A stretch of 60,642 bases of DNA from Pontiellaceae bacterium B12219 (GTDB taxonomy: Bacteria; Verrucomicrobiota; Kiritimatiellia; Kiritimatiellales; Pontiellaceae), in assembly GCA_029432795.1 (NCBI GenBank), contig JARNMJ010000024.1:1-60642 (forward strand), written 5' to 3'. Shown here one piece after another: positions 25,272 to 44,454 of the stretch. Made by a program: the position numbers and the translations under genes. The notes below the pieces were generated by a model. That model searched no databases, had not been told where the DNA came from, and was given only the letters and a program-made list of their open reading frames with translations. Every line of letters starts with the position of its first letter. Position 1 is the first letter of the stretch.

Positions 25272-26330
25272 TCAGGCCGAACAAGGCCCACTGGTTTCAC
25301 CGGCATCAAAAGTGGAAGGAACCACCAGGTCGGTATAAATTTTATCGACGGACCGAGCTCCCCCCCCCGACCGACATAACAATTTAGCCGCCTCTTCACC
25401 AATGACCTGCGGATCACTTCCCGCACTCGTCATATATGGATGAATTTCTTCACAGGCACGGGTCCGATCAATAGTAACCAGACTGATATCCTGAGGAATT
25501 CGAATACCCCGCAATAAAGCAAACTGCAATGCACCTCTGGCCATAAGCCCGTTATAGCAAACCCATGCCGTAGGTGCCTCCCGCCCCGCAGTCCGCTGAA
25601 CCAGCTCCGCCGCACAATCAAACCCCTCCTGCCGATCTCCATTGGACACATTCAGAACATTTCGCTCATCCAGCGAAAGATTCCGTGCCGCCAGCGATTC
25701 GCGAAGTGCACTCAGCCGGGCATGGTTACGCCCCAGCTTGGCATTGCCTCCCAAAAAGGCAAACCGGGTGTGCCCCAGCTTAGTCAGGTGATCCACCAAC
25801 TGCTCAAGCGACTGCTTTTCGTTCGGAAGCACAGAATGACAAAGTCCGGGCATATTGGCATACACACTGAGCACCTCCACGCCCAGTGCACCCAGTGCGC
25901 GCAGAAACGGTTCTTTAACCTCGCCATAAACAACAATACCTAACAACGGGTCCCGCCGCCGAAGCAGTTCATAGAGCATTTTTTCATCCAGATCCCCCTC
26001 CCCACCAAGGAAGGTCGTACTGATATGTGATTGCTGCAAAACCGTGAACAGACCCTGATGCACATGACTGAAGGTGTTACTCAGATTTGCCAGCCGCAGG
26101 CCCGTACGCAATATTACACCGACGTAACTGCTGCGTACATCAGGCGCAAGATTCGGTTGCATACCGCGCGGTATATACCCCTTTTCATCTGCCAACGTCC
26201 AAATCCGGTTATACGACTCGTCCGAGACATTTTCACGCCGCCCATTCAACACCAGCGAAACCAACGACTGGGAAACCCCCAACTCCTTGGCAATCTGACT
26301 TTGAGAAATTCGTTTTTTTGTTTTAGTCAC
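25272..26330 (-). CDS. LacI-family transcriptional regulator
   Basis: 352 aa. N-terminal HTH (ISQSQIAKELGVSQSLVSLVLNGR) and hinge, then a periplasmic-binding-protein-like sensor domain (about 70-340). It is divergent from the dehydrogenase/isomerase pair and beside the alginate-degradation genes, so local control is likely. Its effector would be a sugar or uronate; this is inference. AT-rich motifs recur in the promoters around it, but LacI operators usually have a central CG, so the link to those motifs is not established. Confidence 0.92.
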   Translation of the reverse strand: MTKTKKRISQSQIAKELGVSQSLVSLVLNGRRENVSDESYNRIWTLADEKGYIPRGMQPNLAPDVRSSYVGVILRTGLRLANLSNTFSHVHQGLFTVLQQSHISTTFLGGEGDLDEKMLYELLRRRDPLLGIVVYGEVKEPFLRALGALGVEVLSVYANMPGLCHSVLPNEKQSLEQLVDHLTKLGHTRFAFLGGNAKLGRNHARLSALRESLAARNLSLDERNVLNVSNGDRQEGFDCAAELVQRTAGREAPTAWVCYNGLMARGALQFALLRGIRIPQDISLVTIDRTRACEEIHPYMTSAGSDPQVIGEEAAKLLCRSGGGARSVDKIYTDLVVPSTFDAGETSGPCSA

Positions 26331-28289: not shown

Positions 28290-28377
28290 TTCCCTCCGAA
28301 TTTGACCGAGTCCGCGCACCGACCTCCCTCAAACCTCTGCCAACAGGCCCGCACAACACGAAACAGAAACAAAAAAA

Positions 28378-28405
28378 GCCCCCGCTTTAAACGGAGGCCT
28401 TTTTC
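28378..28405. terminator. bidirectional terminator between convergent genes
   Basis: GCCCCCGCTTTAAACGGAGGC forms an imperfect stem with T5 on the plus strand and T7 on the minus strand. It serves the isomerase and the PEP-CTERM gene. Confidence 0.75.
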
Positions 28406-28424: not shown

Positions 28425-29315
28425 CTATCTTCTCATCCGGCGACGCATAAACAGAAAGACAATCGAAGCCATTCCCAACAGACCGAGTGTGGCCGGCTCA
28501 GGAATTACCTCCACCTGAACATTTGTCAGTGTGATTCCATTATCCGGATCTCCACCTGAATTCGATGAGCCGAATACTCCGGAATTCGCCCACAGCCCGA
28601 ACATGCCGAAATTATTGGCAATTGCACTCGAATCTGTTTCTGAATGGCTGTCCAGCAGCGTTTCACCCTGACTCAGGGAACTGAAGATATCAACGCTATC
28701 CAGCCCCGTACGCGTCACAGAGAACACCCCCACATAATCCGTATTTGCCAGCGTGGCATAACCATTGTCTGCCGATGACCCAAGCGAATCCCATTCCCCC
28801 GAGGTACCCAGAAAACGCCCCGTAGTGGCCGCAACATTATGCTTTCTCAGACTGATATCATCCTCACCGGCAGCATTGTTAACATCAAAATCAGCCATGT
28901 ACCCCGCCTGACCGATATACAGCGGATTCGCCGAACTTGAACTTGAGTCCAAATCAGCAGCTAAACCTGCATTATTAAAGTCCATCAATGCCACTTTAAA
29001 GGCCCCGCCTTTATCATTCCCAATGGTAGTCGGGGTTGTATAGCGATAGGTCACGGTGATGCTATCACCAACCGCAAGTGTCTGAGCGGCAAACGTGGCA
29101 TGAATGCCGCGTCCTGAAGATCCTGTCACCAAACCCAAGCCGAATTCATCGATCTCAACCGAGTTACCGCCCGAAGAACTGGAAGACCACCAGTCGGCAT
29201 CCAGTAAGCCGGTCTTAGTTCGAAACCCGTCGAAAAAATCATCGTTGACGATAATTTCGCCGAACACCAAGGCCGGAGCTAACAGCATCGCACCATACAG
29301 CATTCCTTTTTTCAT
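28425..29315 (-). CDS. PEP-CTERM surface protein
   Basis: 296 aa. Signal peptide 1-19, a beta-rich, Ser/Gly/Asp-rich body, and a textbook C-terminal sorting signal: VIPEPATLGLLGM, hydrophobic helix, RRRMRR. Proteins with this tail are processed by an exosortase and placed on the outside of the cell. No exosortase is in the window. Distant resemblance to concanavalin-like lectin proteins (VTYRYTTPT, KVALMDFNN) suggests carbohydrate contact. Last gene of the minus-strand group; 69 bp after the two-module protein. Confidence 0.85.
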   Translation of the reverse strand: MKKGMLYGAMLLAPALVFGEIIVNDDFFDGFRTKTGLLDADWWSSSSSGGNSVEIDEFGLGLVTGSSGRGIHATFAAQTLAVGDSITVTYRYTTPTTIGNDKGGAFKVALMDFNNAGLAADLDSSSSSANPLYIGQAGYMADFDVNNAAGEDDISLRKHNVAATTGRFLGTSGEWDSLGSSADNGYATLANTDYVGVFSVTRTGLDSVDIFSSLSQGETLLDSHSETDSSAIANNFGMFGLWANSGVFGSSNSGGDPDNGITLTNVQVEVIPEPATLGLLGMASIVFLFMRRRMRR

Positions 29316-29384: not shown

Positions 29385-31379
29385 CTAATCGATCTCCACC
29401 TGCAACTGCATGAAGGCCTGATCAGAGGCAGCTGTTGATATCCGGTTGGTTACCACATCAAACCCCGAAACGGAGGGAGAAGATCCAGCTTCGATGGTTG
29501 GTGTGGTCATGGATCCGAAAACCAGATCGGTATCCGAATAGACGTTATAGGTTAAGCCGTATGTCGCCGGATTATCGCGGCGGTGATACACATAATTCAG
29601 CCAGGTCGTCCCACCATCTTCCCTCAGGTTATACGTCGGCGCATAGAGTTCGGCATCACTGACGGTCGGGTTACCCCCGAAAGCATATTCCTGCAGATTA
29701 TTCATGCCGTCCATCTCCGCATCATCCAGATAATTGGTATCGGCTCCCAATGCAGGGAACAGAGCCAACCACTCGTCAAAGGTATCGACCAGAAGATTGG
29801 TGGTAATCAGGAAGTTATCGAAAACATAATTTACATCATATTCCGATGAACCGGAATAGAATCCAAATTTACCCAGATTGCTCTCGGTATTCCATATCTC
29901 GCCATCGGCAGTAGCATCGAATAAATCCATGGTAATATATTCATTGGTAGCGACATCATTGCTCATAATAATCAAGTTGCCGTTCAACCAATAAGCAGCA
30001 GAATTGGTCGGCAGCGTATACACATCTCCATCAAGCCCGGTGTACTGCACGAACTGGGTATCGTAGTCATTCACAAAGATACTGAGCGTGTTTGCACCCG
30101 GAAGGATTATATTATCTTCACTGACCGGATAATTGGTTGAAACGCCATTTCGACGGAAATCGATCGTGCCATCATTGTAAAAACGCGCATCGGTATAGCG
30201 CCGTGAATTACTGTTCAGCGTCCGGTCGGTATCCCATTGACCAAATCCCAGAGCAAGAAACTTATCGCCAGGTCCCGCTTTCGTTACATAAGCAAATTCA
30301 AGATCAAACCGCAGGGCCGAGATTTGATCCTCCGGAAAGTCAACAAAGTTATATTCCAGCGAAACAATATCTGCAGAGGTCGTGCCGTTATCATACAGAT
30401 TCACCCCGTTGCCCGTTCCGGCTGGATTGTCAGCCGCATTCACCACCGTGCACCACGCTACTGCAGTTGATCCAGGAGGTGATGGACGCACCGCTGTGGC
30501 CACCGGTTGCGAACCCACAATCTGATCCGAAAAATTTTCGTAAAATATATTTTCAGGAACATCCGGCGGAGCCACATACACAGAGTCATAGGAGGAAACA
30601 ACCAGATTATCCAATGCATAATTCAGCCCCACGGCGGATGATCCGGTACTAAATCCGAATTTACCGAAGTTGTTCGTGGAGGTGCCAATCGTCCCGCCCG
30701 CCGTAACATCGTCCTGATCCAGCAGTGTCGAAAAGATCAACGCACCATCCAGCCAATAGGAAACCCCGTTTGCGCTCAGGGAATTTGTACTTCCGTCCAG
30801 CCCGATATAATTCACCGAATCGGAATCCAGATCGTTAACAAACATCGTTACAGTATGGGAGGTGTTGGAGGGCGACACATCAATATTGGAGCTGTCTCCG
30901 CCGGAATCACTTTCAAACGAAACAGTTCCGTTATCGTACAGACGCATATTGTTCCACCGGTTTCCGTTTGAGTTCAACGACAACCCCTCGTTATACCCTC
31001 CAAACCCGGCCGTGATGTATGCCACCTCATTCGTATTTCCGCCCAGATAGGAAAAACTGAAATCTGCACGAACCAGCGATTTCTGATCTCCCGCCGAGGC
31101 CACAAAGTTATACGACATGACCGCAGATCCATCCGTCGAAACAACCCCATCATCCATATCATACATCTGAACCCCGTTCCCGGAGCCGGCGGAATTCACC
31201 CCACTGTCCACAACCTTCGTAAAAATAATGGAGGTATTTGCATTCGGACGAACAACGTCTGCTGCAGGTGGATTGCCCACTGTTTCTGCATCGTAGTTTT
31301 CATTGAGCAACTCCACTGAATATCCTGACAGCGCCCCAAACACCGACACCGCCGAAATTACCAGAACCATCCTCTTCAT
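29385..31379 (-). CDS. secreted protein with two copies of a shared beta module
   Basis: 664 aa from ATG 31379, chosen because GGAGG lies 5 nt before it (an ATG four codons upstream overlaps that site). Signal peptide about 1-20. Two modules (about 22-265 and 285-530), each with L-[ST]-LNSN-x2-R, a DNGT-[VI]-[SD]-F strand, a FVND-x-D segment, YWL-[DN]-G and N-[FL]-GKFGF near the end. C-terminal part has a Ca-loop-like DDAEMDGMNNLQEYAFGGNP segment common in secreted proteins of this phylum group. No catalytic motif is visible; an adhesive or alginate-binding role is inferred from its neighbours. Confidence 0.8.
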   Translation of the reverse strand: MKRMVLVISAVSVFGALSGYSVELLNENYDAETVGNPPAADVVRPNANTSIIFTKVVDSGVNSAGSGNGVQMYDMDDGVVSTDGSAVMSYNFVASAGDQKSLVRADFSFSYLGGNTNEVAYITAGFGGYNEGLSLNSNGNRWNNMRLYDNGTVSFESDSGGDSSNIDVSPSNTSHTVTMFVNDLDSDSVNYIGLDGSTNSLSANGVSYWLDGALIFSTLLDQDDVTAGGTIGTSTNNFGKFGFSTGSSAVGLNYALDNLVVSSYDSVYVAPPDVPENIFYENFSDQIVGSQPVATAVRPSPPGSTAVAWCTVVNAADNPAGTGNGVNLYDNGTTSADIVSLEYNFVDFPEDQISALRFDLEFAYVTKAGPGDKFLALGFGQWDTDRTLNSNSRRYTDARFYNDGTIDFRRNGVSTNYPVSEDNIILPGANTLSIFVNDYDTQFVQYTGLDGDVYTLPTNSAAYWLNGNLIIMSNDVATNEYITMDLFDATADGEIWNTESNLGKFGFYSGSSEYDVNYVFDNFLITTNLLVDTFDEWLALFPALGADTNYLDDAEMDGMNNLQEYAFGGNPTVSDAELYAPTYNLREDGGTTWLNYVYHRRDNPATYGLTYNVYSDTDLVFGSMTTPTIEAGSSPSVSGFDVVTNRISTAASDQAFMQLQVEID

Positions 31380-31450
31380 CACTACCTCCATGGATTTTAG
31401 CTTTTCCGATTAACTAGCGTGATAATAGGACGCCCGTTCACAAGGTCAAG

Positions 31451-31570: not shown

Positions 31571-34500
31571 TCACGGCTGAACAAGCAGGCGATAGAAGCG
31601 TTTTCCAGCGAGCGGATCAGAATCGGTTAAATCCAGTACATCACCCGCCCCAACCGCCGCTCCGGCGGCATTCACCCAATTAACCGGAGTCAGCGATTCG
31701 GTACGCTGGAGCTGATAGAGCGCACCGTAGACCGCGAAAAGTGAAAACCGAATGCCACCATCGGCATTTTCCATAGCGGGCAGGACCACTTCCTCTGGAA
31801 GCGTGGCCGGCACACCCCGGATTTCAACCTCGGAAATTGCGAATTCATCATTCACATTATTTCCATAGCCCACGATGCGGAGGTAACGCGCACTGATCCC
31901 GGAAAAATCGTATACCTGCAAAGCTGTACTGCTTCCGGAAGAGGTCTCCAGCGCGACCACTCGGGCCCAATTTAAGCCATCCACCGAAACATCAACGGTA
32001 AAATCATAGGAGCGCGCGTCGCCCAGATACCACGCCACCAGCACTTCATGCAGACTTTGCGGAACGCCCAGGTCATAAGAAATCCACGCACCCTCTCCCG
32101 CGGCAGACCAATGGGTCCCCAACAACCCATCCACTGTATTCTCCGGACCATTCCCATCATCGGAACCGGCCGCAACGCCCACCAGCGCACGGCTCGTCAA
32201 CTCAACCATTGGACCGCCGCTCAGATCGTAAACCTGTATATCATCGAAGACGAAGTCCAGACCGACATAGCTCGTACTGGAATAAAAACCGAATTTGCCC
32301 AGATTATCTTCGGTGGAGCCCACCGTTCCCCCCGCCGTGGAATCCCCGACATCCATCGCAAGACAGCCCTTGCCGTCTCCCATAATCACACGCGCCCCGT
32401 TCAGCCAATAGGCCACCGAGTTGGCCGGAAGCGAATAGATGCTTTCGTCGGGGCCGGTATAATCGACCGCCACTGAGTCGTAGTCGTTGACGAAAATAGA
32501 GAGCGAATTCGGGCCCGTCGGCAGGACATTTCCCGTGCTCGACGACCCTCCCGAGGCAACAAAATCGATCGTGCCGTCGGCATACAACCGTACTTCCGTA
32601 AACCGATTGGCCGAACTGTTAAGCGATTGCCCCGTATTATACTCGCCAAAGCCGAGCCCGACAAAGTGACTGCTCGACCCGCCGGTCACGATTTGAGCAA
32701 AATTAAAGTCAGCGCGGACGGCGGAAATCTGATCGCCGGCACTGTCGACAAAGTTATAAGAGAGCAGCGTTGAGGCGCTCCCGTTATCACGAAAACGTAC
32801 TCCGTTTCCGGCTCCCGCGGTGTTTCCGGCGCCATCAACAACCTTCACATAATTATCGGCAGTATTGGAGGTCGGCCGCAGCACCGTTGCCCCGTTCGGT
32901 TGTTGGCCGGCTGTCTGCCCGGCTTCGAAATCTTCCGACAGATACACCATTGAAGATCCTGCAGTATCCACAGCAAGACTCAGCGACTGCAAATCGGCGA
33001 TGCCTCCCTCAAGCACCTGCACCGTAAACAGAAAAACCCCGTTAGTCGTTGGCGTTCCGGATAGAAGTCCTCCGGCGCTCAACGACAATCCCGGCGGCAG
33101 TGCGCCACGCTCAATCGACCAGGCAGGACCGCCCGTACCGCTGACCGTTTGCAGAGATTGAGAATAGGGAAACCCCAGCACCGCGTTCGGCAATGCCACC
33201 GTGGCAATCTCCACATCGCCGCCGCGCGATAGCGACAGTTCCTGGAATGCCACCTGCGTGGTGGAGCCCGGGGCAGGAACGGTGTAATACGCCCCCGCCT
33301 TGAAATAGAAGGTCGATACCAGCCAGTTTGCCAGATCGTCCGACAAATCGACCGACTGGGTGGAACCGTTCACCGTGCAATAGAACGTAAACGAAGTCGG
33401 AGAGGCAACCATCTTCATTTGGTAGGCAATCGATTCGCCCAGCGCAGGAGCCGGAAAATACATCCAATCCTTGGAACCCAGCCCATCCGCAGTCAGATAG
33501 GTCGATACCGCAATCTGCGCCGGATCCGTTGTGCCGTCGTAGCGCATAATCACCGTCGGCACATTCGGCTCCTTGCCATGAATCTGTCCGATTGCAACCT
33601 TGCCGATGCCGACCGAGTTCACCCGGCACACCGCTTCGAGAGTATGAACACCGCCATCGTCGAGCGGCAGCCAATTGCGCAGCGATCCATCGGAATAGGT
33701 TTCCCGCAGTTCGCTGCGCGGACTCGGGGATGTTCCGGCAATGGCTCCGTTGTAGGGCACTGTAAAGACCATCGAGCCATCCGTTCCCGTATAGAAATAC
33801 GGCGCATTTTCATAGCCGTTTGTCAGCATTGCGGAGGAAAGCGTCAAGGCTTCCCCCGAAAACCCATTGGTGGAATCAACCGGCGCCTGCAGATACCATT
33901 CGCTCAGATCAAAATTACCGGATGGCGGAACAAGCGGATCCAGCGCACCCAGCACCACCGGATAGGTTCCGGCCGGCCCGCTGTCGAACTCCGGCCCCAC
34001 CTCGGAACGCAGCAGCGGACGGCTGCCCGTTCCATCCACCTCGCGCTCGAAACTTCCAATGTCTGGAAGCAGACCCATGCGAGACAGCCCCCGCACGTCA
34101 TTCGATACCAGACCGGGGATCAAGGCGGCATTCAACAGCGGACTGCTCGATGTCGGAACCAGACAGGCATCAAACGCCTCTGTAATCTGCGCCGATACCG
34201 AATGGGTGTAGGTCCCGTTCACCAGCCCCGTCCAGCCATACGCCCCCGGTTCATAGATATAGTTTCCGCCGCAAGGCCCCACAACAAACCCATTGGAACG
34301 CTCAATGGCACCGGACGAGCCGGTGCCGTGCCACGCGTTGTTGTAAATCGCACAATTGGTGGGTTGCATATCGCCATCCGAACCATAGAAACCCAGATTA
34401 ATCTCCCCACAACCGACAAATGTATTATGGAAAATCTGCGCGTTATGCGCCGCTTCGTAGCCGTTGTCCCCGGTGGATCCATCACCATCGTCGAAATCAG

Positions 34501-35548
34501 CAGAGCCGCCCATCAGACAGATTGCAGCACGATAGCTGCTGCCCCGCAGGTTTTCAAAATAGTTATTCCGTACCACGTGATCCGTGCCGATGACCCGCAC
34601 TCCGCCCTGATAATCATTGGGCGAATCCACAACAATCGAAGTGCCGGAATATCGACCGCCCCCGAAGAAATAATTCCCCTCAACCAGCGCACGGTCTCCA
34701 TGCCGCAAAGTAACCTCGCCGTAACTTTCCAGAAACGTATTGTTCCGGATCACGTTGTCGGCCGATTTGTTGGAGATGATCTCCATGTCGTTTGGCTTTT
34801 CGCCGTCCGAACGCCAGATCGACCGATAGAACACATTCTCTTCTACGGTCACCTGCATCGAATGCGCCTGCGAAGAACTGTCGCCGATCCGAATGGTTTC
34901 GTATCCGTTTTCCGACTCCGATGATTCCCGGGGACCGAAATAGCACCGGCGGATAATATGGTTGCGCGGCACCGCAATTCCCGCTTCGGAACTGCTGCGC
35001 TTAATGCCGATGGTTGCATTGGCATTCGGCTCGTCTTTCCCCTCAAAGGAGCAGTATTCAACGACATGATTAAACCCGTTAATCTGGATCCAATGCCCAT
35101 AGTCATCACCGGTTGTGCAGTCCTTAAAACGCAGGTTGGACAAGGTCATATAGCGGGAATCAATACCCAACCGAATGATTTCCGCCGGCGAACCGCTTCC
35201 ATTATCAATCATCCCGCTTCCGGAAACAAAGTCCAGTCCGGCCAGCGTGATGCCCCGCCCCGACAGCGTAATATTGGAAGGCTCCGTAATTTTCACCCCA
35301 CCCGGCGTCTGGGCATAGACCAGCACCGGATTAGTTTGAGCTGCGGCATCGCTGGAAATCGAACTCGTCAGCGTTTTATCGAGCGCCCCGTAATTTCCAT
35401 CCTGCAGCACGACCTGATCGCCCGCATTCAGTGTAGGCAATGCATTAAACTCCGCAGCAGTTGAAACCGGATATACGGTCGCCACGGAAACCCCGGCCAT
35501 CCACAGGAACATCATTGTCAGTTGTACAGTTCTCATCTTATTTTCCAT
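31571..35548 (-). CDS. multimodular alginate lyase PL6-PL7
   Basis: 1325 aa, secreted (signal about 1-23). Residues 24-500: PL6/chondroitinase-B beta-helix with the catalytic Lys and Arg in IISNKSADNVIRNNTF and TLRHGD. About 545-775: PL7 lyase with RSELRE, GQIHG and YFKAGAYYT, all three hallmark motifs. About 783-860: Ig-like putative-binding domain (GALPPGLSLSAGGLLSGTP). About 866-1105: the beta module shared with the neighbouring protein. About 1113-1245: F5/8C discoidin domain (ENTVDGLLGTHWSA). C-terminal about 75 residues resemble a sorting or fibronectin-like tail (RTESLTPVNW). Both catalytic sites look intact. Two Met codons start the frame (35548, 35536). Confidence 0.93.
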   Translation of the reverse strand: MENKMRTVQLTMMFLWMAGVSVATVYPVSTAAEFNALPTLNAGDQVVLQDGNYGALDKTLTSSISSDAAAQTNPVLVYAQTPGGVKITEPSNITLSGRGITLAGLDFVSGSGMIDNGSGSPAEIIRLGIDSRYMTLSNLRFKDCTTGDDYGHWIQINGFNHVVEYCSFEGKDEPNANATIGIKRSSSEAGIAVPRNHIIRRCYFGPRESSESENGYETIRIGDSSSQAHSMQVTVEENVFYRSIWRSDGEKPNDMEIISNKSADNVIRNNTFLESYGEVTLRHGDRALVEGNYFFGGGRYSGTSIVVDSPNDYQGGVRVIGTDHVVRNNYFENLRGSSYRAAICLMGGSADFDDGDGSTGDNGYEAAHNAQIFHNTFVGCGEINLGFYGSDGDMQPTNCAIYNNAWHGTGSSGAIERSNGFVVGPCGGNYIYEPGAYGWTGLVNGTYTHSVSAQITEAFDACLVPTSSSPLLNAALIPGLVSNDVRGLSRMGLLPDIGSFEREVDGTGSRPLLRSEVGPEFDSGPAGTYPVVLGALDPLVPPSGNFDLSEWYLQAPVDSTNGFSGEALTLSSAMLTNGYENAPYFYTGTDGSMVFTVPYNGAIAGTSPSPRSELRETYSDGSLRNWLPLDDGGVHTLEAVCRVNSVGIGKVAIGQIHGKEPNVPTVIMRYDGTTDPAQIAVSTYLTADGLGSKDWMYFPAPALGESIAYQMKMVASPTSFTFYCTVNGSTQSVDLSDDLANWLVSTFYFKAGAYYTVPAPGSTTQVAFQELSLSRGGDVEIATVALPNAVLGFPYSQSLQTVSGTGGPAWSIERGALPPGLSLSAGGLLSGTPTTNGVFLFTVQVLEGGIADLQSLSLAVDTAGSSMVYLSEDFEAGQTAGQQPNGATVLRPTSNTADNYVKVVDGAGNTAGAGNGVRFRDNGSASTLLSYNFVDSAGDQISAVRADFNFAQIVTGGSSSHFVGLGFGEYNTGQSLNSSANRFTEVRLYADGTIDFVASGGSSSTGNVLPTGPNSLSIFVNDYDSVAVDYTGPDESIYSLPANSVAYWLNGARVIMGDGKGCLAMDVGDSTAGGTVGSTEDNLGKFGFYSSTSYVGLDFVFDDIQVYDLSGGPMVELTSRALVGVAAGSDDGNGPENTVDGLLGTHWSAAGEGAWISYDLGVPQSLHEVLVAWYLGDARSYDFTVDVSVDGLNWARVVALETSSGSSTALQVYDFSGISARYLRIVGYGNNVNDEFAISEVEIRGVPATLPEEVVLPAMENADGGIRFSLFAVYGALYQLQRTESLTPVNWVNAAGAAVGAGDVLDLTDSDPLAGKRFYRLLVQP

Positions 35549-35755: not shown

Positions 35756-36952
35756 TCAGCGCATCAACGGAACAACCAGCCGTTCTCTCTCTCCCGCAGT
35801 TCCCTCCGGAAATTTCTCTACCCATTTTCCATAGGATTCATCCGCATAAACCTTTTCAGCATACAGCAGCAGCTGAAGCAGCTGCATGCGCCCTTCGTCC
35901 CTGATTTCCGGATACGGCCAGGGCTTTACCGGATCTGCATACGGCGCCATAAAATCAAGTCCGGCCCGTATGCGCGAATCGCCCGCATGCCACAGATCAA
36001 CTCCGGTTGGTTCGGCCAGCCGGGCCAACAGAAACATGGCATCAAGATTGAACAGGCTGTAGAAAAGAGATCGCGTACGCGCCAACTCTTCCGGTTGCGC
36101 CCCATCCTCCTCAATCTGGACCAGAATTCGCTTATTGACGGCCGCGACGGCGATTTCCCGCGCATAACTTACATCGCCGGTAAAAAGGGCAATATACATA
36201 ATCTGCACATCAAAGAAGGTACCGTGGTTATTTTCGGCATTAGACGCATTCTGTGCCATTTCGTTCGACTTCAACCATTTAAGATATTGAGCAAACCACG
36301 CCCGCAAGCCCTCCTCTTCGGAATCACTCAGCGCCGCGGACCCCTCCAGCAAAACGACGCCATCCAATACCCGGCAAAAAAGCCGGCCGTCAAGAATTCC
36401 GCTCTTTTTGCCGTCCACCAACCCCGGGACGCCCTGTGCAAAATTGAGGTTCGGGTTCATACGGGTTGCCGGATTCAGAAACCAGATACGGATCAGCTCG
36501 GCAGCCTTCTCGGCATAACGCGGATCGCCGGTAAAATAGTAGGCCAATCCCAACGTTTCCACTCCGGCCGCCATATGACCCAACCGTGGGCGGTCCGACG
36601 CCGAACCTTGACTTTCCGGGTTGGTTTCGCCGTCACGCCGGATATAGGGCAATCCATCGGGTTTAGTCGGATCCGGCCACCAGTAGCGACTGAAGCTCAT
36701 ATAATCATGCTTATCGCCGCTGGGCGGAACGCGGGTTTTATTCATCACCGAAAACGGCCCGGAGAACAATGCGGCTTCGGCCTGTTCAACCAGATTTGAA
36801 AAAGCAGGCAGTATCTCCGCATCGCCCGCCAGAATCCGCTCTTTGCTTTGTGCCAATACGTCTCCATCCATCAGAAGCGTTGCCGGCGGATGAGCCGCAA
36901 GAGCAATGCCGGAAACGGCAATCAGACCGCAGACTAATCCGGCACGGTTCAC
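35756..36952 (-). CDS. alginate lyase (PF05426 fold)
   Basis: 398 aa with a GTG start at 36952 preceded by AGGAG. Signal peptide about 1-20. Alpha/alpha-toroid lyase of the PF05426 group (PL5/PL38-type): WWPDPTKPDGLPYIRRDGE and the catalytic AENNHGTFFDVQ (Asn-His). The heparinase-type gene stop and this start overlap (GTGA). It likely cuts alginate or a related polyuronate in the periplasm. Last gene of the six-gene operon; a 207-bp gap with a small CCGGA/TCCGG hairpin precedes the PL6-PL7 gene. Confidence 0.88.
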   Translation of the reverse strand: MNRAGLVCGLIAVSGIALAAHPPATLLMDGDVLAQSKERILAGDAEILPAFSNLVEQAEAALFSGPFSVMNKTRVPPSGDKHDYMSFSRYWWPDPTKPDGLPYIRRDGETNPESQGSASDRPRLGHMAAGVETLGLAYYFTGDPRYAEKAAELIRIWFLNPATRMNPNLNFAQGVPGLVDGKKSGILDGRLFCRVLDGVVLLEGSAALSDSEEEGLRAWFAQYLKWLKSNEMAQNASNAENNHGTFFDVQIMYIALFTGDVSYAREIAVAAVNKRILVQIEEDGAQPEELARTRSLFYSLFNLDAMFLLARLAEPTGVDLWHAGDSRIRAGLDFMAPYADPVKPWPYPEIRDEGRMQLLQLLLYAEKVYADESYGKWVEKFPEGTAGERERLVVPLMR

Positions 36953-39102
36953 AATCTCCTTGCCTCGCTCCGGAGTTCCGCTGATTGGAACAGTATATTT
37001 CCGGCCTTCTTCAGATACGTCGCTTCGCGGACGGCGAACTCAACGGGTTTCCCGTCTTTTGTGCGAACCCAGCAGAAGCTTGCATCCGTTTCCAATCCCT
37101 GGAACTCAACCTTATCCGACCCCGGTTGCACCATCAGAACATCCGCCATGCCTTCACCGGAAACCGTCGCCCAGATCTGATTTCCGTTCCGGCTCGATTC
37201 AACCACAGGAGCCGCCTGATCGGTCGATGCAGGGAAAAGTATCTGCAGAAAGGTGATCTCTTTTCCTTCGGCCTTGGCCTTGATGTACGGGAAGACCCCG
37301 TAATCGTCTTTCAGATACGTGCTTTCACCTTCGTCGTTTTCGATGGTTTCCGCGCCGAACGTCCAGGTGTAGAGCTTCGAGGCCGGCCCGTACGCATCAT
37401 CAGAAAAGTTCCAGACTCTGGAAACGCCGGCGCCGGTCATCGCACCCCGACCGCCGTGCAGCACCTGAACCGCTTCGGACTTTTCGGGCGAGGTAACAAT
37501 ATCGGCCACCACAAAATAGGACTCGCCGGGAAAGGCAATCGCACGGCGCAGCAGCCCGCCGTTCGGATACGGGGCCTCCTTTTCCTCAAAGTCAAAAAAT
37601 GTAGTATCCATCCGATGTTTGGAAAGCGGCGTCTGCCCTTCTGCAACATCCACCGGTGCCTCGCCGTTCAGCAACACCACATTATGGGCAATGCCCTGAT
37701 TGTACCATTCTGTACGTTCTTTACCGGAATACGTGCCCCGACTGTAGCCGCCGTCGGACGCCATCATCTGATTTTCTGCAAACAGAATAAAACTCAGGTG
37801 CTCCGCATGATGATGGTTGTCGGCTTCGGCCACGCCCTGAAAAAGCAGGTAACGCACAGCAGGATCGGACGGCGCCCAGCTGTTTCGGAATATCGTCTGT
37901 CCGCCATCGAGAAAAACGGTCGGCGACACGTCGGGCGCAGCTCTTCCAAGGGTTGGATCGTAGGTCAGGTATTCAACCAACGACATCGCGAAATCCCAGC
38001 TTGCACCGGAATAATTGTATCCCGTTTTTTCCAGATACGCTTCAAACGGCGACCAATCCGTGGTTTCAAAATTCCACATCAGAATATCCGATAAAGGAGC
38101 CGATGAATTGAGCCACGAAGATGCCTCTTTATACATGCCGGCAGCCATGTGTCCGGGGAACGGCCGGATGTAGGAATCTTCAAGATTCGGCAACCAGCCT
38201 TTTCCGTTGCGCACGGCAATCCCCCATTCCATCAGCGGCTGAAAATTCTCAAACTGGTTCACGCCCGAAACGTTGTAGTAGTTCCACATGAACGGCAGAA
38301 AATTGACCCAGCTGAACATCATATAGTGCGCGCCTTCCCGATAGATTCCGTCCGCGCTGAAAAAATAGCGCGTGTTGTCGTTCGCCGCCGCCAGCGCCAT
38401 GCCCAGCCAGCCGAGCGCCCGGGGATCGTCCGACAGCGCCAAAGCCATACTGCCGACGCCCCAGGCCGGTTTTGACAAATGGTTGTGCGGGCGATCCGCC
38501 CACTCATACAGATTGATAGCAACCCGGTTGCACTCATCGCCTAATTGCTTCCGAATGGCCTCGTCCTGCTGCGGCGAGAGGAACGGCTGCATCCAGTCAT
38601 ACGCCGCCGCATAGTTCTGCAGCCAGGTCCCCATATAAATTTCGTCGACCGGACCGCTCTTCTCTTTCGGATCCAGTTCTTTGATCGGCCCGTCGTACGC
38701 CCGCTCCAGCGCCGCAATGGCCCGTTCCTGATATTCAGGAGAAGCGTCCATCCAGAACATGAAGGCATTGTATGCGGCGATCTGCGACATGGTGCCGTAG
38801 TATTTATGGATCACCTTTTTGCCATCATCGATCCCGGGGACCGACGGAAGTTCCAAGGTCAGGAACTCGCTTCCGGAAACCTCCGCCCAGAACCGCGCCG
38901 CCGTTTTGTCCTGATCCTTCTTCGCCTTCAATGCCGCCACATCCGCCTTCTTAAACCAGAGCGAGGGATGCACTTCTTTTGCCGGAAGCTCCGGCACGGA
39001 ATCGACCGTGAATCCGGTATAGGATTCGTAGTCTGCATATTTTGATGCGGACTGCGCCGCAATCGCGGCGAACAGGCACCCCGTGAAAATCAGCTTTTTC
39101 AT
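36949..39102 (-). CDS. heparinase II/III-type polysaccharide lyase
   Basis: 717 aa from ATG 39102; the upstream TTG in the open frame is inside the SDR gene. Signal peptide about 1-18. N-terminal alpha/alpha toroid (about 50-400, with WADRPHNHLSKPAWGVGSMAL), then the two-layer beta-sandwich with EADNHHHAEHLSFILFAEN and SDGGYSRGTY, the heparinase II/III metal and catalytic region. Families PL15, PL17 and PL39, several of them exolytic alginate lyases, share this fold; I cannot choose between them. Position behind an SDR fits release of DEH monomer. Exact palindromes at 37090 and 37409. Confidence 0.88.
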   Translation of the reverse strand: MKKLIFTGCLFAAIAAQSASKYADYESYTGFTVDSVPELPAKEVHPSLWFKKADVAALKAKKDQDKTAARFWAEVSGSEFLTLELPSVPGIDDGKKVIHKYYGTMSQIAAYNAFMFWMDASPEYQERAIAALERAYDGPIKELDPKEKSGPVDEIYMGTWLQNYAAAYDWMQPFLSPQQDEAIRKQLGDECNRVAINLYEWADRPHNHLSKPAWGVGSMALALSDDPRALGWLGMALAAANDNTRYFFSADGIYREGAHYMMFSWVNFLPFMWNYYNVSGVNQFENFQPLMEWGIAVRNGKGWLPNLEDSYIRPFPGHMAAGMYKEASSWLNSSAPLSDILMWNFETTDWSPFEAYLEKTGYNYSGASWDFAMSLVEYLTYDPTLGRAAPDVSPTVFLDGGQTIFRNSWAPSDPAVRYLLFQGVAEADNHHHAEHLSFILFAENQMMASDGGYSRGTYSGKERTEWYNQGIAHNVVLLNGEAPVDVAEGQTPLSKHRMDTTFFDFEEKEAPYPNGGLLRRAIAFPGESYFVVADIVTSPEKSEAVQVLHGGRGAMTGAGVSRVWNFSDDAYGPASKLYTWTFGAETIENDEGESTYLKDDYGVFPYIKAKAEGKEITFLQILFPASTDQAAPVVESSRNGNQIWATVSGEGMADVLMVQPGSDKVEFQGLETDASFCWVRTKDGKPVEFAVREATYLKKAGNILFQSAELRSEARRL

Positions 39103-39857
39103 GCGCAATAGACTCCGCCGTTAATATCCAAGGTGGCACCGGTCATAAAACCGTCGAACTGCTCCGCCAGAAAGACCACCGAATGAGCAACGTCGTCCGG
39201 CGTGCCGGCACGGCCCAATGGAATCTGGGCAATCGTTGCAGCAGCCGACTCCTTGGTGGTGTGTGTATTGTGAAAACTCGTTTCAAGAATCAAACCGGGC
39301 GCGAGGGCATTCACACGAATGCCATCCGGCCCGAGCTCATTGGAAAGCGCGCGCGTCATGGTGAGCACCGCGCCCTTGGCCAGCGAATAAACCAGCGACC
39401 CGGGATGCCCGCCTTTCCGACCGGCCAGCGAAGCAAGGTTCACAATGCTCGCACTGCCCGCCTTCTTCAACGCCGGAACCGCAGCCTGCGTAACGTTCAG
39501 CATGGAGGTCACATTCACATCAATGACCGTCCGCCAGAAATCCATATCCACTTCATTCAATAAGCGCCGGGCAATCAAAGAACCGGCGTTATTAATCAGA
39601 ATATCGAGCCCGCCAAGGCACGCGACGGAATCGGTAACGAGTTGTTCTGCCGCCGCGGCATCCGTCAGGTCGGCCTGAAAAATACAAACGCGCTCTTCGC
39701 CATATTCCGCCTTCAGGGCATTGGCCGCATCGGCCGAAGAAAAATAATGTACAGCCACGTTACAGCCCTCCGCCAGCAGTGCCTTGCTGATGGCCAACCC
39801 GATACCCTGCGCACCGGCCGTAACCAGCGCGCGTTTTCCGTTCAGTTTTTTACTCAT
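39099..39857 (-). CDS. SDR oxidoreductase, probable DEH reductase
   Basis: 252 aa, classical SDR. Cofactor motif VTAGAQGIGLAI, NNAG at about 90, and catalytic Ser/Tyr/Lys in NLASLAG and VYSLAKGA. In alginate pathways an SDR reduces 4-deoxy-L-erythro-5-hexoseulose uronate to KDG; the placement between lyase and transporter genes supports this, but specificity is inferred. ATGA overlaps at both ends show tight translational coupling. No KDG kinase or aldolase is in the window. Confidence 0.85.
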   Translation of the reverse strand: MSKKLNGKRALVTAGAQGIGLAISKALLAEGCNVAVHYFSSADAANALKAEYGEERVCIFQADLTDAAAAEQLVTDSVACLGGLDILINNAGSLIARRLLNEVDMDFWRTVIDVNVTSMLNVTQAAVPALKKAGSASIVNLASLAGRKGGHPGSLVYSLAKGAVLTMTRALSNELGPDGIRVNALAPGLILETSFHNTHTTKESAAATIAQIPLGRAGTPDDVAHSVVFLAEQFDGFMTGATLDINGGVYCA

Positions 39858-41605
39858 GATTCATTTCCTTTTTTAGATGCCCGATACAACAGTGCGCCTA
39901 CACCGCCAATCAAACCGCCGGAGAATAAAAAGGCGATACGGCTCATCCATGGATTCGGCACCAGAATCAGCAACAGAACAAAACCGCCATAGACAAAGCA
40001 GAGGATTCCGAGCATCCGTGATTGTGCCCCATCCTTGGCCTCGCCCACTTCTTTCCTGAAATCAATCGGCGTACGCATCGCCGTAAAAAACGTGTCCACC
40101 CGCGCCCTGAACTCAACCGAAGATTTTCTGTAGAACAAGGAGGTAGCAAAGAACCAGGCCGTGCAAATCACGGCGTTGGCGAGCACGCCGAAGAAATAAT
40201 AATAGTCCTTCACTTCCCGCGAACTCATTTCACCGTCAAAGCCGAACAGTTCACCAAACCAGGCCGGATCGATAAAATTCTTGATGACCAGCGAAACCGT
40301 CAAACCGACCACCACCGTACTCCAACCGGACCACGGCGGAGTCTTTTTATACATAATGCCCCACACCAGCGGAATCACATATGGAATCGCAATCAAGCCG
40401 CTGAACAGCAGCATCACATTGAACAGATCCATATCTTCCAGTCGGCTGATATACGTCGCAATCATAATGATAATCACACCGAACAACCCGGACACCACAC
40501 GGCCTGCAACCAGCAGCTGCGTTGATGTTTTTTCTTTGCCGACACGCTGATAGAAACTACGGATAAATATGCCGGCATTCCGATTAAGCCCGCTGTCCAT
40601 AGACGAAATCGTTGCCGCAAACAACCCGCAGACCAGCAGCCCCATCATACCGACCGGCAGGACCTTCATCGCCGCAAAAATGTACGAAGCCTCTGCCGGA
40701 TTTTTGAGCATAGGGAATTCAACGGCCAGATCCGGACTCAGTATCCGGGCGGCCATCGGCGGAATAAACCAGATCACCGGACCGATCAGCATCAGGCCGG
40801 AGGCCAACAGCGCGGCCTTGCGCGCCTGATGTTCGTTCTTTACACCGAGGTAGCGATAGGAATCCTGCATATTGTTCAGAATCAGGAACTGCTTGATGAA
40901 GGTCGCAATGATCCAGAACCAGATAATCTGCGGGCGCGCCACCTCGTCCCAGTTAAAATGATGGCCCGGCACTTTTTCAATCAGGCCTGAAATTCCGCCG
41001 ATGTCGGCATGACCCAATACCATTACAGCCGTTACAATCGAAACCGCCATCAGCAGCAGCAATTGAACAAAGTCGCCGGCACAGATGGCCCACGAACCGC
41101 CCGCCACAGAGAGCACAATCACCACAATGCCGACCACCCAGATGGTCTGCTCCATGTTGAATCCGAATACCGCCGAGGCAAATACCGCCAGACCGTTCAG
41201 CCAGATCGAAGCATAGACCAGGCTCATCGGAATCTGCAGCCAGGTGAATACCTGTTCATTCACCGGACCGAAACGTTCGCGCACCGATTCAATAGGCGAT
41301 ACCACCCGCATTCGGCGGAAGCGCGGTGCAAACCAGACAAAGTTAATGAAAAATCCGACGGCGTTCGCGAAAAAGATTAACGCCACCAACGTGCCGTCCT
41401 GATAGGCCTTACTCGCCGCACCGGTAAAGGTCCACGCGCTGAACTGCGTCATGAAGGCCGACCCGCCGACCATCCACCAAAGCATCTGCGCCCCGCCACG
41501 GAAAAAGTCGCTGTCGTTTTTACTGAAATGTTTAAAAACCGGCCCCAGCGAAAGCATGAAGAGGAAGAAGAACCCAATCACCACATAATCGTAAACCGTC
41601 AGCAT
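39854..41605 (-). CDS. SSF sodium:solute symporter of the alginate operon
   Basis: 583 aa from ATG 41605, preceded by AGAGGGGG; the longer frame has no ribosome site. About 13-14 membrane helices; SSF motifs WTFTGAASKAYQDG near the N-terminus and AATISSMDSGLNRNAGIF at the Na+ site. Probable carrier for oligo- or mono-uronates; SSF members serve as oligoalginate transporters in Vibrio. The stop overlaps the SDR start (ATGA). Confidence 0.9.
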   Translation of the reverse strand: MLTVYDYVVIGFFFLFMLSLGPVFKHFSKNDSDFFRGGAQMLWWMVGGSAFMTQFSAWTFTGAASKAYQDGTLVALIFFANAVGFFINFVWFAPRFRRMRVVSPIESVRERFGPVNEQVFTWLQIPMSLVYASIWLNGLAVFASAVFGFNMEQTIWVVGIVVIVLSVAGGSWAICAGDFVQLLLLMAVSIVTAVMVLGHADIGGISGLIEKVPGHHFNWDEVARPQIIWFWIIATFIKQFLILNNMQDSYRYLGVKNEHQARKAALLASGLMLIGPVIWFIPPMAARILSPDLAVEFPMLKNPAEASYIFAAMKVLPVGMMGLLVCGLFAATISSMDSGLNRNAGIFIRSFYQRVGKEKTSTQLLVAGRVVSGLFGVIIIMIATYISRLEDMDLFNVMLLFSGLIAIPYVIPLVWGIMYKKTPPWSGWSTVVVGLTVSLVIKNFIDPAWFGELFGFDGEMSSREVKDYYYFFGVLANAVICTAWFFATSLFYRKSSVEFRARVDTFFTAMRTPIDFRKEVGEAKDGAQSRMLGILCFVYGGFVLLLILVPNPWMSRIAFLFSGGLIGGVGALLYRASKKGNES

Positions 41606-41618
41606 AAAATCCCCCTCT

Positions 41619-42683
41619 TTATCGAATCGGCGGTTGTGCCAGCAAAATGTTCCAATCCTTGGAAACGGCCGTCCAATTCCACTCCGGCACGGCACCGGGC
41701 AGCAACCAGGTTTCGCCGGCGCTTACCGCAACGCCATTCAGTCGGCCGGCCCCCTTCAAGGCAATCAGCACCATCGGCTCGTTTCCAATCCAGTCGGCCG
41801 GCCCCGTACCGTACATACGCCTTAACCGGAAAAAGGCCGCATGCTTCGGATCAATAATCCGTTCCTCAACAAAGGAGTCCGACGTACGCAGCACCTCCGG
41901 TGCCTGCAGCAATTTTTCACAGACCGTGTTCAACGCATATTCCGTATAGTCGAAAAGCGGGAGCACCTCTTCCAGTTCGAGCCCCATAAAGCGCGCATCG
42001 TGCGGCAGAACATGACCGCCCGCACTGAACTCGCAACGCACCACCCAATCGGTCGGCTCCTGCAGTTCGATCATAAAAATGCCTTCGCCTATGGCATGCG
42101 GAATGCCCGCCGGCACCATCAGGCAATCGCCCGGCTTTACCGGTATTTTTTCAAAACAGGCCCGCATGCCTTCCAGATCCTGATCGCGCACCATCTGCCC
42201 CCACTCCTCCGGGGTCGGAGCATGCTGAAAACCCAGATAAACGAAGGCATCGTCATCCCGGACAGAAAGAATATACCAGCACTCGGTCTTACCGGCATTT
42301 CCCCTGAAATGCTCCGCAACAAAAGCCCGGTCAGGATGCGCCTGCAGGTGCAGACGAACACTGGAATCGAGCAGTTTAATCAGAATGCCGGTCCTTCCCA
42401 ATTCATCAACGGGTGGTACCTGATTTCCCCAGAACCACCGGGGGTTCAAAGCAATCACATCAAGCAGCAGCCGCTCGACCCCATCAACAATAATCTTCGA
42501 CAACCCCTCATTGGCCGATTGCTGATTTTCACCGTTCCGTGCCCGCACGGTGGAGGCCAGCCAATCTTCCGGGAAATGGTCATCCGCCGTGCTCCTCCCG
42601 TTGCGAAACGTACGGAGCTCGGCACCGCCGAGGTAACTGCGCCATACATACGCAGGCGGCAACTGAATCGGTTCGTTAGTCAA
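41619..42683 (-). CDS. class I mannose-6-phosphate isomerase-like protein
   Basis: 354 aa with a TTG start at 42683: GGAG lies 7 nt upstream and the first residues (TNEPIQLPPAYVWRSYLGG) fit the family. The start codon lies just inside the upstream gene's last codons (8-nt overlap). Zinc-site motifs LQAHPDRAFV, KTECWYIL and VPAGIPHAIGEG are intact. Converts Man6P/Fru6P or a related sugar; its exact job in an alginate operon is unclear. Exact palindrome at 41650-41664. Confidence 0.85.
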   Translation of the reverse strand: MTNEPIQLPPAYVWRSYLGGAELRTFRNGRSTADDHFPEDWLASTVRARNGENQQSANEGLSKIIVDGVERLLLDVIALNPRWFWGNQVPPVDELGRTGILIKLLDSSVRLHLQAHPDRAFVAEHFRGNAGKTECWYILSVRDDDAFVYLGFQHAPTPEEWGQMVRDQDLEGMRACFEKIPVKPGDCLMVPAGIPHAIGEGIFMIELQEPTDWVVRCEFSAGGHVLPHDARFMGLELEEVLPLFDYTEYALNTVCEKLLQAPEVLRTSDSFVEERIIDPKHAAFFRLRRMYGTGPADWIGNEPMVLIALKGAGRLNGVAVSAGETWLLPGAVPEWNWTAVSKDWNILLAQPPIR

Positions 42684-44454
42684 AGCAGATCTCCCACGCC
42701 GGTTCATTCTCTTTTTCCAAAACAACACCGGATGCATCGGCTGAAACAATCTTCCAATCTCTGGAAGGATGCTTCCCGCAATACGACAAACACACCAGGG
42801 CTCCCTCGCCCTCAACCCATTCTGTCTGCAAAATCGGATAACTGCTCGCATCCGCCAGCATGTGCGTACGCGCTGCGCCGGAATGCCGGATGAGATCGGA
42901 TGAATCCCAGCCCGCCACGGCCTGCAGTTTTGAAAAATGGGTCTCGTCCCCGACGGGTAAACTGTAGCCGCCCACGGTCAATCGCGCCTTCTGATGCGCA
43001 TCGTATTTGTGCAGCTGCAGCTGCCACCCCCCGCGCAACCAGATCCGACTTTCCACCTGCAGGCCGAACAGTGTCACTTTATCGCCCAGCACATAGGCCA
43101 TAGCGACTTCGTTCTCCGTGCATTTAAGCACATGCGTGCTGTGCCGCCCGAAAACCGTTCCGTCCTCTGTTTCCGCCGTTAGCGCGGCGTCGCGCGGAAA
43201 CTCGCCTTCCGGCGATTTCACCTCAAATCCAACGCCGGTGCGGAAACTGGTTTTCCCCCACTTATAGGTTCCGAACGCTGTGTTTCCCGGACAGATGGCA
43301 CTCTCGCCATTCAACAGTTCCACCTCGCCTTCGATGGAGCGCACCACCATTCCAATGATTGGAATCGGGCGCGAATAATCCGCCCCTTCAGCAGGCAGCG
43401 GTTCTTCGGCTTCCGTCCAGAACGGATCAGCCGGCTCAATCAGCAACGGCGCAAAAGCCTTCGCCGCCCAATACGGCGAACCCGCGCACGAATAGGCCTC
43501 GGCCAACGCCGGGAAATCATCAACCCATCCGATACTGAGCGGCTCGCCGGCGGGCAGCCGATCCAGAAAAAACTCCAGATTCTTAGTGCAAAGTTTCCGG
43601 CTCATGCCCGCCGACAGCTCCCGCACCTTGCAAAGATGTGCAAGCCCAAAAGGGGCCGATGCCGCAAAGCGATAGATCAGCGAACGGCCAAACGGAACAT
43701 TTTCGCCGGAGGCCGCAAAAAAGTGCGAATAGTCATGAAGGAACGGTTTGGCATAGTCACGCCAGCGCTCGGCGCGTGCAGGATCCATATCCCCGTAAAG
43801 CCTGCCCCACCACAGGCCGTAATAATGAAAGGCGTAGGCATTATAATGATCGACGGTTTCGTTCATTCCATCCAGAAACCAGCCGTTACCCAGATACATA
43901 CTCTCCAGAATATCCATCCACTGCAGTACAAGCGCCTGATCCTCCGTCGACCCCAGGCCTTCGCGAATCGTAAAACAAAGCGGGAATACGCCGAAAAATA
44001 AATGATTGTTCCGGTGCAGTCCCACGCCGCGCACCGTGCGGAACCACTTCAATACCTGCAGTTTCCCGTCTGCCGTCAACGGCGTCCACAACCAGTCGCG
44101 CGCCATTTCAAGCGCCAGCACCAAAGCACCGGATTCAACGGAATGCTGATGATAGTTGGTGATGGCCCCCCAATACGTATCCGCCTTCGGATCGGTTCCG
44201 GCCACCAGGCCTTCGCGAAACCAGCGCGCCACCTCATCGCGGCTGAATCCCGATGCCTCTCCGCCCTGTGCAGCCAGCCAATGGCTCGCCAGCAAACACG
44301 GCCGGGCAAACGCTTCCAGCTCATCCGCACCAATGCCATGATTACTCGCCATACCTTCCAATGGAATGAACGCTGCACCCGGCTGCATGCGATCGACTAA
44401 CGGTTTCAGCAACTGCTCCGCCGCCAGCACCCAACTTTCATATGAACTCATCAT
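42676..44454 (-). CDS. DUF2264 family protein
   Basis: 592 aa. N-terminal alpha/alpha-barrel region (about 1-360; YWGAITNYHQHSVESGALVLALEMA, GNGWFLDGMNETVDHYNAYAFHYYGL) characteristic of DUF2264, then a beta-rich C-terminal domain. No signal peptide, so cytoplasmic. These proteins often sit in polysaccharide utilisation loci; the biochemical function is not settled. First gene of the operon running to 35756. Exact palindromes at 42752 and 43350. Confidence 0.85.
   Translation of the reverse strand: MMSSYESWVLAAEQLLKPLVDRMQPGAAFIPLEGMASNHGIGADELEAFARPCLLASHWLAAQGGEASGFSRDEVARWFREGLVAGTDPKADTYWGAITNYHQHSVESGALVLALEMARDWLWTPLTADGKLQVLKWFRTVRGVGLHRNNHLFFGVFPLCFTIREGLGSTEDQALVLQWMDILESMYLGNGWFLDGMNETVDHYNAYAFHYYGLWWGRLYGDMDPARAERWRDYAKPFLHDYSHFFAASGENVPFGRSLIYRFAASAPFGLAHLCKVRELSAGMSRKLCTKNLEFFLDRLPAGEPLSIGWVDDFPALAEAYSCAGSPYWAAKAFAPLLIEPADPFWTEAEEPLPAEGADYSRPIPIIGMVVRSIEGEVELLNGESAICPGNTAFGTYKWGKTSFRTGVGFEVKSPEGEFPRDAALTAETEDGTVFGRHSTHVLKCTENEVAMAYVLGDKVTLFGLQVESRIWLRGGWQLQLHKYDAHQKARLTVGGYSLPVGDETHFSKLQAVAGWDSSDLIRHSGAARTHMLADASSYPILQTEWVEGEGALVCLSYCGKHPSRDWKIVSADASGVVLEKENEPAWEICFD

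Follow-up and report, generated by a model that had tools for sequence, protein, structure and literature searches.

A predicted secreted alginate lyase with PL6 and PL7 heads in a Pontiellaceae bacterium and the undescribed modules around it

A stretch of 60,642 nucleotides from Pontiellaceae bacterium B12219 (contig JARNMJ010000024.1 of assembly GCA_029432795.1; the whole stretch is referred to as the window) contains a gene whose product is very probably a secreted alginate lyase of several modules that has two catalytic heads, one of polysaccharide lyase family 6 (PL6) and one of family 7 (PL7). The gene is a single open reading frame (ORF) on the minus strand, 31571-35548, that runs from ATG to stop over 1325 amino acids (aa) with no internal stop and no N. 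An earlier note, made from the letters of the sequence, had claimed a secreted 1325-aa PL6-PL7 chain that also holds an Ig-like, a discoidin and a new beta module. The open frame and the Pfam profiles of both lyase families bear out the fusion, and the accessory domains are found as He_PIG, F5/8 type C and a region at aa ~868-1107 that has no Pfam match.

31571..35548, minus strand: PL6-PL7 fusion gene P0001 (ORF, 1325 aa, Pfam)
35480..35548, minus strand: signal peptide, aa 1-23, with a basic start, hydrophobic core and ..SVA/TVY cut (judged by inspection)
34043..35479, minus strand: PL6 right-handed beta-helix, aa ~24-502 (Pfam, PDB relatives, conservation, model)
33227..33913, minus strand: PL7 lyase, presumably a jelly roll, aa 546-774 (Pfam, nearest PDB structure, motif alignment)
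33005..33199, minus strand: He_PIG Ig-like domain, aa 784-848 (Pfam, E 8e-7)
32228..32947, minus strand: beta module of an undescribed family, aa 868-1107 (predicted concanavalin-like jelly roll)
31847..32164, minus strand: F5/8 type C (CBM32-like) domain, aa 1129-1234 (Pfam, PDB relatives)
31574..31801, minus strand: C-terminal module, aa 1250-1325 (recurs on other secreted proteins of the order)

Two predicted catalytic heads in one chain

The Pfam match strengths of the fusion protein are far above chance. The Chondroitinas_B/PL6 profile (PF14592) covers aa 36-381 with an E value of 5.7e-45 (154 bits against a cut-off of 24), the Alginate_lyase2/PL7 profile (PF08787) covers aa 546-774 at E 6e-34 (118 bits against 29.7), and the F5_F8_type_C profile covers aa 1129-1234 at E 5e-14. 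The closest solved relatives of the last domain are the CBM32s of alginate lyases (AlyQ), at E 1e-26 to 1e-28. The PL6 head has 7o84 and AlyGC (5gkd) among its PDB relatives, and the nearest solved structure of the PL7 head is A1-II' (2cws, E 6e-25). These closest solved relatives, together with the PL6 lyase 6qps, share the catalytic residues of the fusion but are enzymes whose catalytic domains come from one family only.

The catalytic motifs of both families are present: DMEIISNKS (254-262) and TLRHGD (280-285) in the PL6 head, and PRSELRE (610-616), GQIHG (654-658) and YFKAGAYY (748-755) in the PL7 head. Across an alignment of 98 PL6 sequences K261, R282, E256 and S259 are invariant, position 214 is N in 94 sequences, position 254 is E in 71 and D in 26 (D254 in the fusion), and position 283 is H in 65, as in the fusion (H283). 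K261, R282 and H283 are the counterparts of K249, R270 and H271 of BcelPL6, a lysine, arginine and histidine proven essential in that enzyme (PMC6879350). R611, E613, Q655, H657 and Y748 of the PL7 head agree with the pattern of other PL7 homologues in the alignment. N214, D254 and E256 are presumably Ca2+ ligands, as in AlyGC; right before D254, beside the Ca site, the fusion carries a short EKPN insertion found in no other of the 98 sequences. The earlier statement that both motif sets are intact holds, as the motifs were located and their residues agree with homologues in both alignments. AlphaFold2 renders the PL6 half as a confident beta-helix, with a predicted local distance difference test score (pLDDT) mostly of 80-97. 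When the fusion was aligned with PL7-only rows, the PL7 domain was misplaced, and that alignment was dropped for folding. By these residues and profiles it is well supported that a single secreted chain carries two alginate-lyase domains of unrelated structure, both of them intact.

PL6 lyases act by Ca2+-assisted beta-elimination and PL7 lyases by His/Tyr beta-elimination, and both yield oligosaccharides that end in a 4-deoxy-uronate. The two heads of the fusion would be expected to cleave in these respective ways. After secretion the enzyme would bind the polymer through its CBM32 domain and probably through the beta module, and this would place both heads on the same chain or gel, where together they would cleave a wider range of linkages than one head by itself. 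Attack on different block types by the two heads is plausible, and the motif residues do not decide it.

Related fusions and alternative readings

Conserved stretches of two fusions were searched for in 84,980 species genomes, which yielded 73 loci; the search relied on two short patterns only, and further fusions surely exist. PL6 and PL7 occur in one ORF in the window, in Kiruna_bin-04469 and in Paenibacillus cremeus, Kribbella albertanoniae and Kibdelosporangium persicum, and independent PL6+PL7 proteins span three phyla. On the PL6 tree the fused state requires at least four changes, with the Kiruna protein (P0002) on a long branch of unsure placement. The PL6 domain of the window falls within a set of six Verrucomicrobiota PL6s with a support of 100, and the other five carry different C-terminal modules. 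A CAZy survey, published in ISME J in 2026, describes PL7+GH16+PL6 enzymes with the layout CBM32-PL7-GH16-CBM32-PL6, one of which was tested and is active on alginate and glucans (PMC13235733). As such enzymes are published, the fusion is of a known kind, with a different domain order and different modules. The uniqueness implied by the earlier note is contradicted by at least four separate PL6+PL7 lineages and by this published type. No paper was found in the literature under the phrase 'PL6-PL7', and the exact architecture of PL6, PL7, He_PIG, beta module and CBM32 was not met in the scans or the literature.

The known fusions differ from the one in the window in several ways. The published enzymes likewise hold PL6, PL7 and CBM32 in one secreted chain but have the reverse order, a GH16 glucanase in between, mostly actinomycete hosts and no reported beta module (PMC13235733). 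The CBM32-PL7-PL6 proteins of Kribbella albertanoniae (L119) and Kibdelosporangium persicum (L130) combine the same lyase families with CBM32, whereas their order is reversed and their PL6 belongs to another clade. A 2477-aa protein of Paenibacillus cremeus (L125) has PL6 first, PL7 later and binding modules, but CBM96/fn3 lie between its two lyases and its PL6 is of a separate lineage. The PL6-Ig-PL7 protein of Kiruna_bin-04469 (L029/L139), from the same taxonomic order, shares the succession of PL6 and PL7; its PL6 is distant, however, and its PL7 has QMK in place of the catalytic QIH, so this head may be inactive or altered. The contig end falls within that gene (L029:2225-6241). PL6 and PL7 were joined repeatedly and independently, in at least four PL6 lineages and two domain orders, which suggests an advantage in linking a beta-helix lyase to a jelly-roll lyase. 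The gene in the window, compact and equipped with binding modules, is a natural test case.

The earlier note had named an assembly error joining two genes as a risk. A chimera made in assembly or binning is extremely improbable as the origin of the ORF, because the GC content is even across the junction and there is no N. The genome assembly is in 273 contigs and the fusion is not in any close relative, PL7 being present in this genome alone among 29 of the family; nevertheless the frame is open with a linker between the domains, the GC content is 0.55 in PL6 and 0.57 in PL7 (0.61 and 0.66 at third codon positions), and a 500-base GC profile has no step at the junction. Moreover, all modules suit the locus, with beta copies next door and other alginate lyases upstream, each module has kin here or in related loci, and similar PL6+PL7 proteins arose independently in other genomes. 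The chimera was rejected on the open frame, the absence of N and the even composition.

It is also unlikely that one head only is a working alginate lyase while the other acts on a related polyuronate or mainly binds. PL6 includes dermatan-sulfate lyases, chondroitinase B is among the PL6 matches in the PDB and the glucuronan lyase 7nde is among the PL7 matches, and we know of no characterised member of the small Verrucomicrobiota clade that holds the window's PL6. The unique EKPN insertion and the Asp that replaces the commoner Glu at one Ca position point the same way, although Asp stands there in the 26 PL6 sequences counted above, the best PDB relatives of both heads are alginate lyases and the surrounding putative operon is rich in alginate-lyase families. 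A neutral fusion, or one that serves co-expression only, with both heads working but not cooperating, is rather unlikely: its sporadic occurrence and absence from relatives would fit, but the combination arose separately at least four times, with either domain first, which suggests that it was repeatedly favoured.

Several points weigh against a two-headed enzyme with cooperating modules. The PL7 model falls below a pLDDT of 50 at aa ~523-631 and ~743-862, where the alignment has only two rows. PL6 and PL7 each include members specific for mannuronate, guluronate and mixed blocks, and the two heads could favour the same blocks, as specificity is not readable from motifs. Transcription of the genes around the fusion as one operon is something we infer only, from their arrangement in the sequence. 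The X122 domains, fold relatives of the beta module, are without detectable binding or activity (PMC10916295).

An operon-like run around the fusion gene

The fusion gene lies in a run of nine consecutive same-strand genes, from 44454 to 28425. The order is DUF2264, a ManA-like gene, a symporter, a short-chain dehydrogenase (SDR), PL39, a PF05426 lyase, PL6-PL7, a protein with two beta copies and a PEP-CTERM protein. Several genes upstream of the fusion overlap by 4-10 bp. The second gene was judged by eye to encode a mannose-6-phosphate-isomerase-like protein; the other neighbours and nearby features are listed below.

42676..44454, minus strand: DUF2264 protein, first gene of the run (Pfam)
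39854..41695, minus strand: sodium:solute symporter (SSF), probable oligo-uronate uptake (Pfam)
39099..39857, minus strand: SDR, possible 4-deoxy-L-erythro-5-hexoseulose uronate (DEH) reductase, assignment not decisive (Pfam and similarity)
36949..39108, minus strand: PL39-type lyase (Dp0100 structures 6jph/6jp4/6jpn, E 6e-209 over 685 aa)
35756..36952, minus strand: PF05426 alginate lyase, PL5/PL38-type (Pfam, E 6e-87; nearest structures 3nfv and 8bdq)
29385..31391, minus strand: 668-aa secreted protein with two beta modules, at 30597-31328 and 29811-30533 (sequence comparison)
28425..29315, minus strand: 296-aa protein that combines a PEP-CTERM anchor signal with a second undescribed module (sequence comparison)
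28371..28405, minus strand: terminator-like stem of 16 pairs with a T tail, just past the last gene of the run (sequence)
25272..26330, minus strand: LacI-family regulator near the run (Pfam)

The product of 36949-39108 was initially taken as PL17 from its heparinase domain, and similarity placed it in PL39; 6JPN is the PL39 enzyme Dp0100 (PMC8286568). By its gene content the region is a predicted alginate locus, whose four lyase domains each belong to a different family. In a draw of 387 genomes from the phylum, PL39 is present in three. The PL39 and PF05426 lyases would complete the breakdown begun by the fusion enzyme, after which the symporter would import the products and the SDR would reduce them. 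The beta-module neighbour and the PEP-CTERM protein may act as non-catalytic alginate binders, the latter at the cell surface.

The same genome holds a second PL6 protein (G000:C240:97878-101825, L026) of 1315 aa, with three Ig domains, an autotransporter-type repeat and no PL7, as well as 14 PF05426 matches, most of them divergent and many in long multidomain frames. A recurring gene set with PL6 and/or a beta-module protein is seen in L167, L168 and L164 (G362, G193 and G257) and L177 (G123). Its partners are a symporter, a ManA-like protein, a 2-hydroxyacid dehydrogenase, DUF2264, a TIM-barrel protein, a SASA esterase, a heparinase-II/III-like protein and a LacI regulator, and it holds many homologues of window genes. 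This recurrence suggests that a locus for polyuronate use is conserved in the phylum. Pontiella agarivorans, a cultured member of Pontiella, does not grow on alginate (PMC10880615). If, as we infer, the genome belongs to Pontiella, the putative operon would mark an alginate specialist in a genus with such a member.

The beta module and its partners

The beta module has no match in Pfam and no sequence match in the PDB, so no named family of either could be assigned to it by sequence. Two further copies, 43-50% identical in an alignment of 28 copies, occupy most of the 668-aa neighbour, which itself has no Pfam match. AlphaFold2 models the module with a pLDDT of 92 and a predicted template modelling score of 0.91. 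The best Foldseek match of the model is TtX122A (E 6e-7, template modelling score about 0.5). VIA-align gives a Z of 19 to a domain of the sialidase BT_1020 (root-mean-square deviation 2.6 over 178), 14-15 to X122 at 15-17% identity, 14.4 to glucuronan lyase and 13 to L-type lectins. The predicted fold is thus a concanavalin-like jelly roll, and the sequence family is undescribed; L-type lectins, glucuronan lyase and the lectin domains of sialidases all have this common fold, and it does not fix function. The X122 domains of Teredinibacter turnerae (8q28, 8q29, 8q2a) are likewise jelly rolls in secreted multidomain proteins but differ in their attachment to redox proteins and in their low identity.

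Ten of the 387 phylum genomes carry the beta module, and eight of these also have a PL6/PL7 match, compared with 31 among all 387 (Fisher p 3e-8; leaving out the window's genome, 3e-7; on the assumption that both draws are the same 387 genomes and with related genomes that are not independent). The module is fused to PL6 in G123, G300 and, with a weaker match, G365, and it adjoins PL6 as a stand-alone protein in G193 and G362. A fusion to PL8 lies ~8 kb before a PL6 gene in G118 (L169:7228-12930), and a homologous 1876-aa ORF with the module has the same position near a PL6 gene in G171 (L170:7282-12909). In G036 the module lies between two PF05426 lyases, near a PL39-SDR-symporter set; a 3576-aa protein of that genome (L171:5028-15755) combines BspA-type leucine-rich repeats, 15 InlB B-repeats and three beta modules. 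The module is also present in one protein together with a SASA esterase and in others with leucine-rich or Ig repeats. A role in alginate alone was rejected on the PL8 fusion and on these esterase and repeat proteins; most partners of the module are uronate-polymer lyases, and these are not confined to lyases of alginate.

The second module, in the PEP-CTERM protein, occurs in four of the 387 genomes and lies by alginate lyases in all four. It is 67% identical to a C-terminal domain fused to PL6 in G406, from another order, and lies ~2 kb from PL6 in G165 and ~1 kb from PL39 in G056. The search for it took no account of lyases, and the linkage to them is therefore no artefact of the choice of loci. 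As two exosortase matches are present in the genome, the PEP-CTERM signal is usable. It is tentatively proposed, with the odds leaning somewhat against it, that the beta module and the PEP-CTERM-linked module are two new polyuronate-binding families of a surface alginate-capture system in Kiritimatiellia/Verrucomicrobiota, with the two-headed lyase as its catalytic part. Such an exosortase-anchored system would be a counterpart to the SusD-type binders of Bacteroidota. Both undescribed modules are trackable leads: few genomes carry them, in most cases next to uronate lyases or joined to them in one protein.

The C-terminal module of the fusion protein, of ~75 aa with an FYRL-like end, recurs on unrelated secreted proteins of the order (also L024, L032 and L019) and is a possible sorting or anchoring signal.

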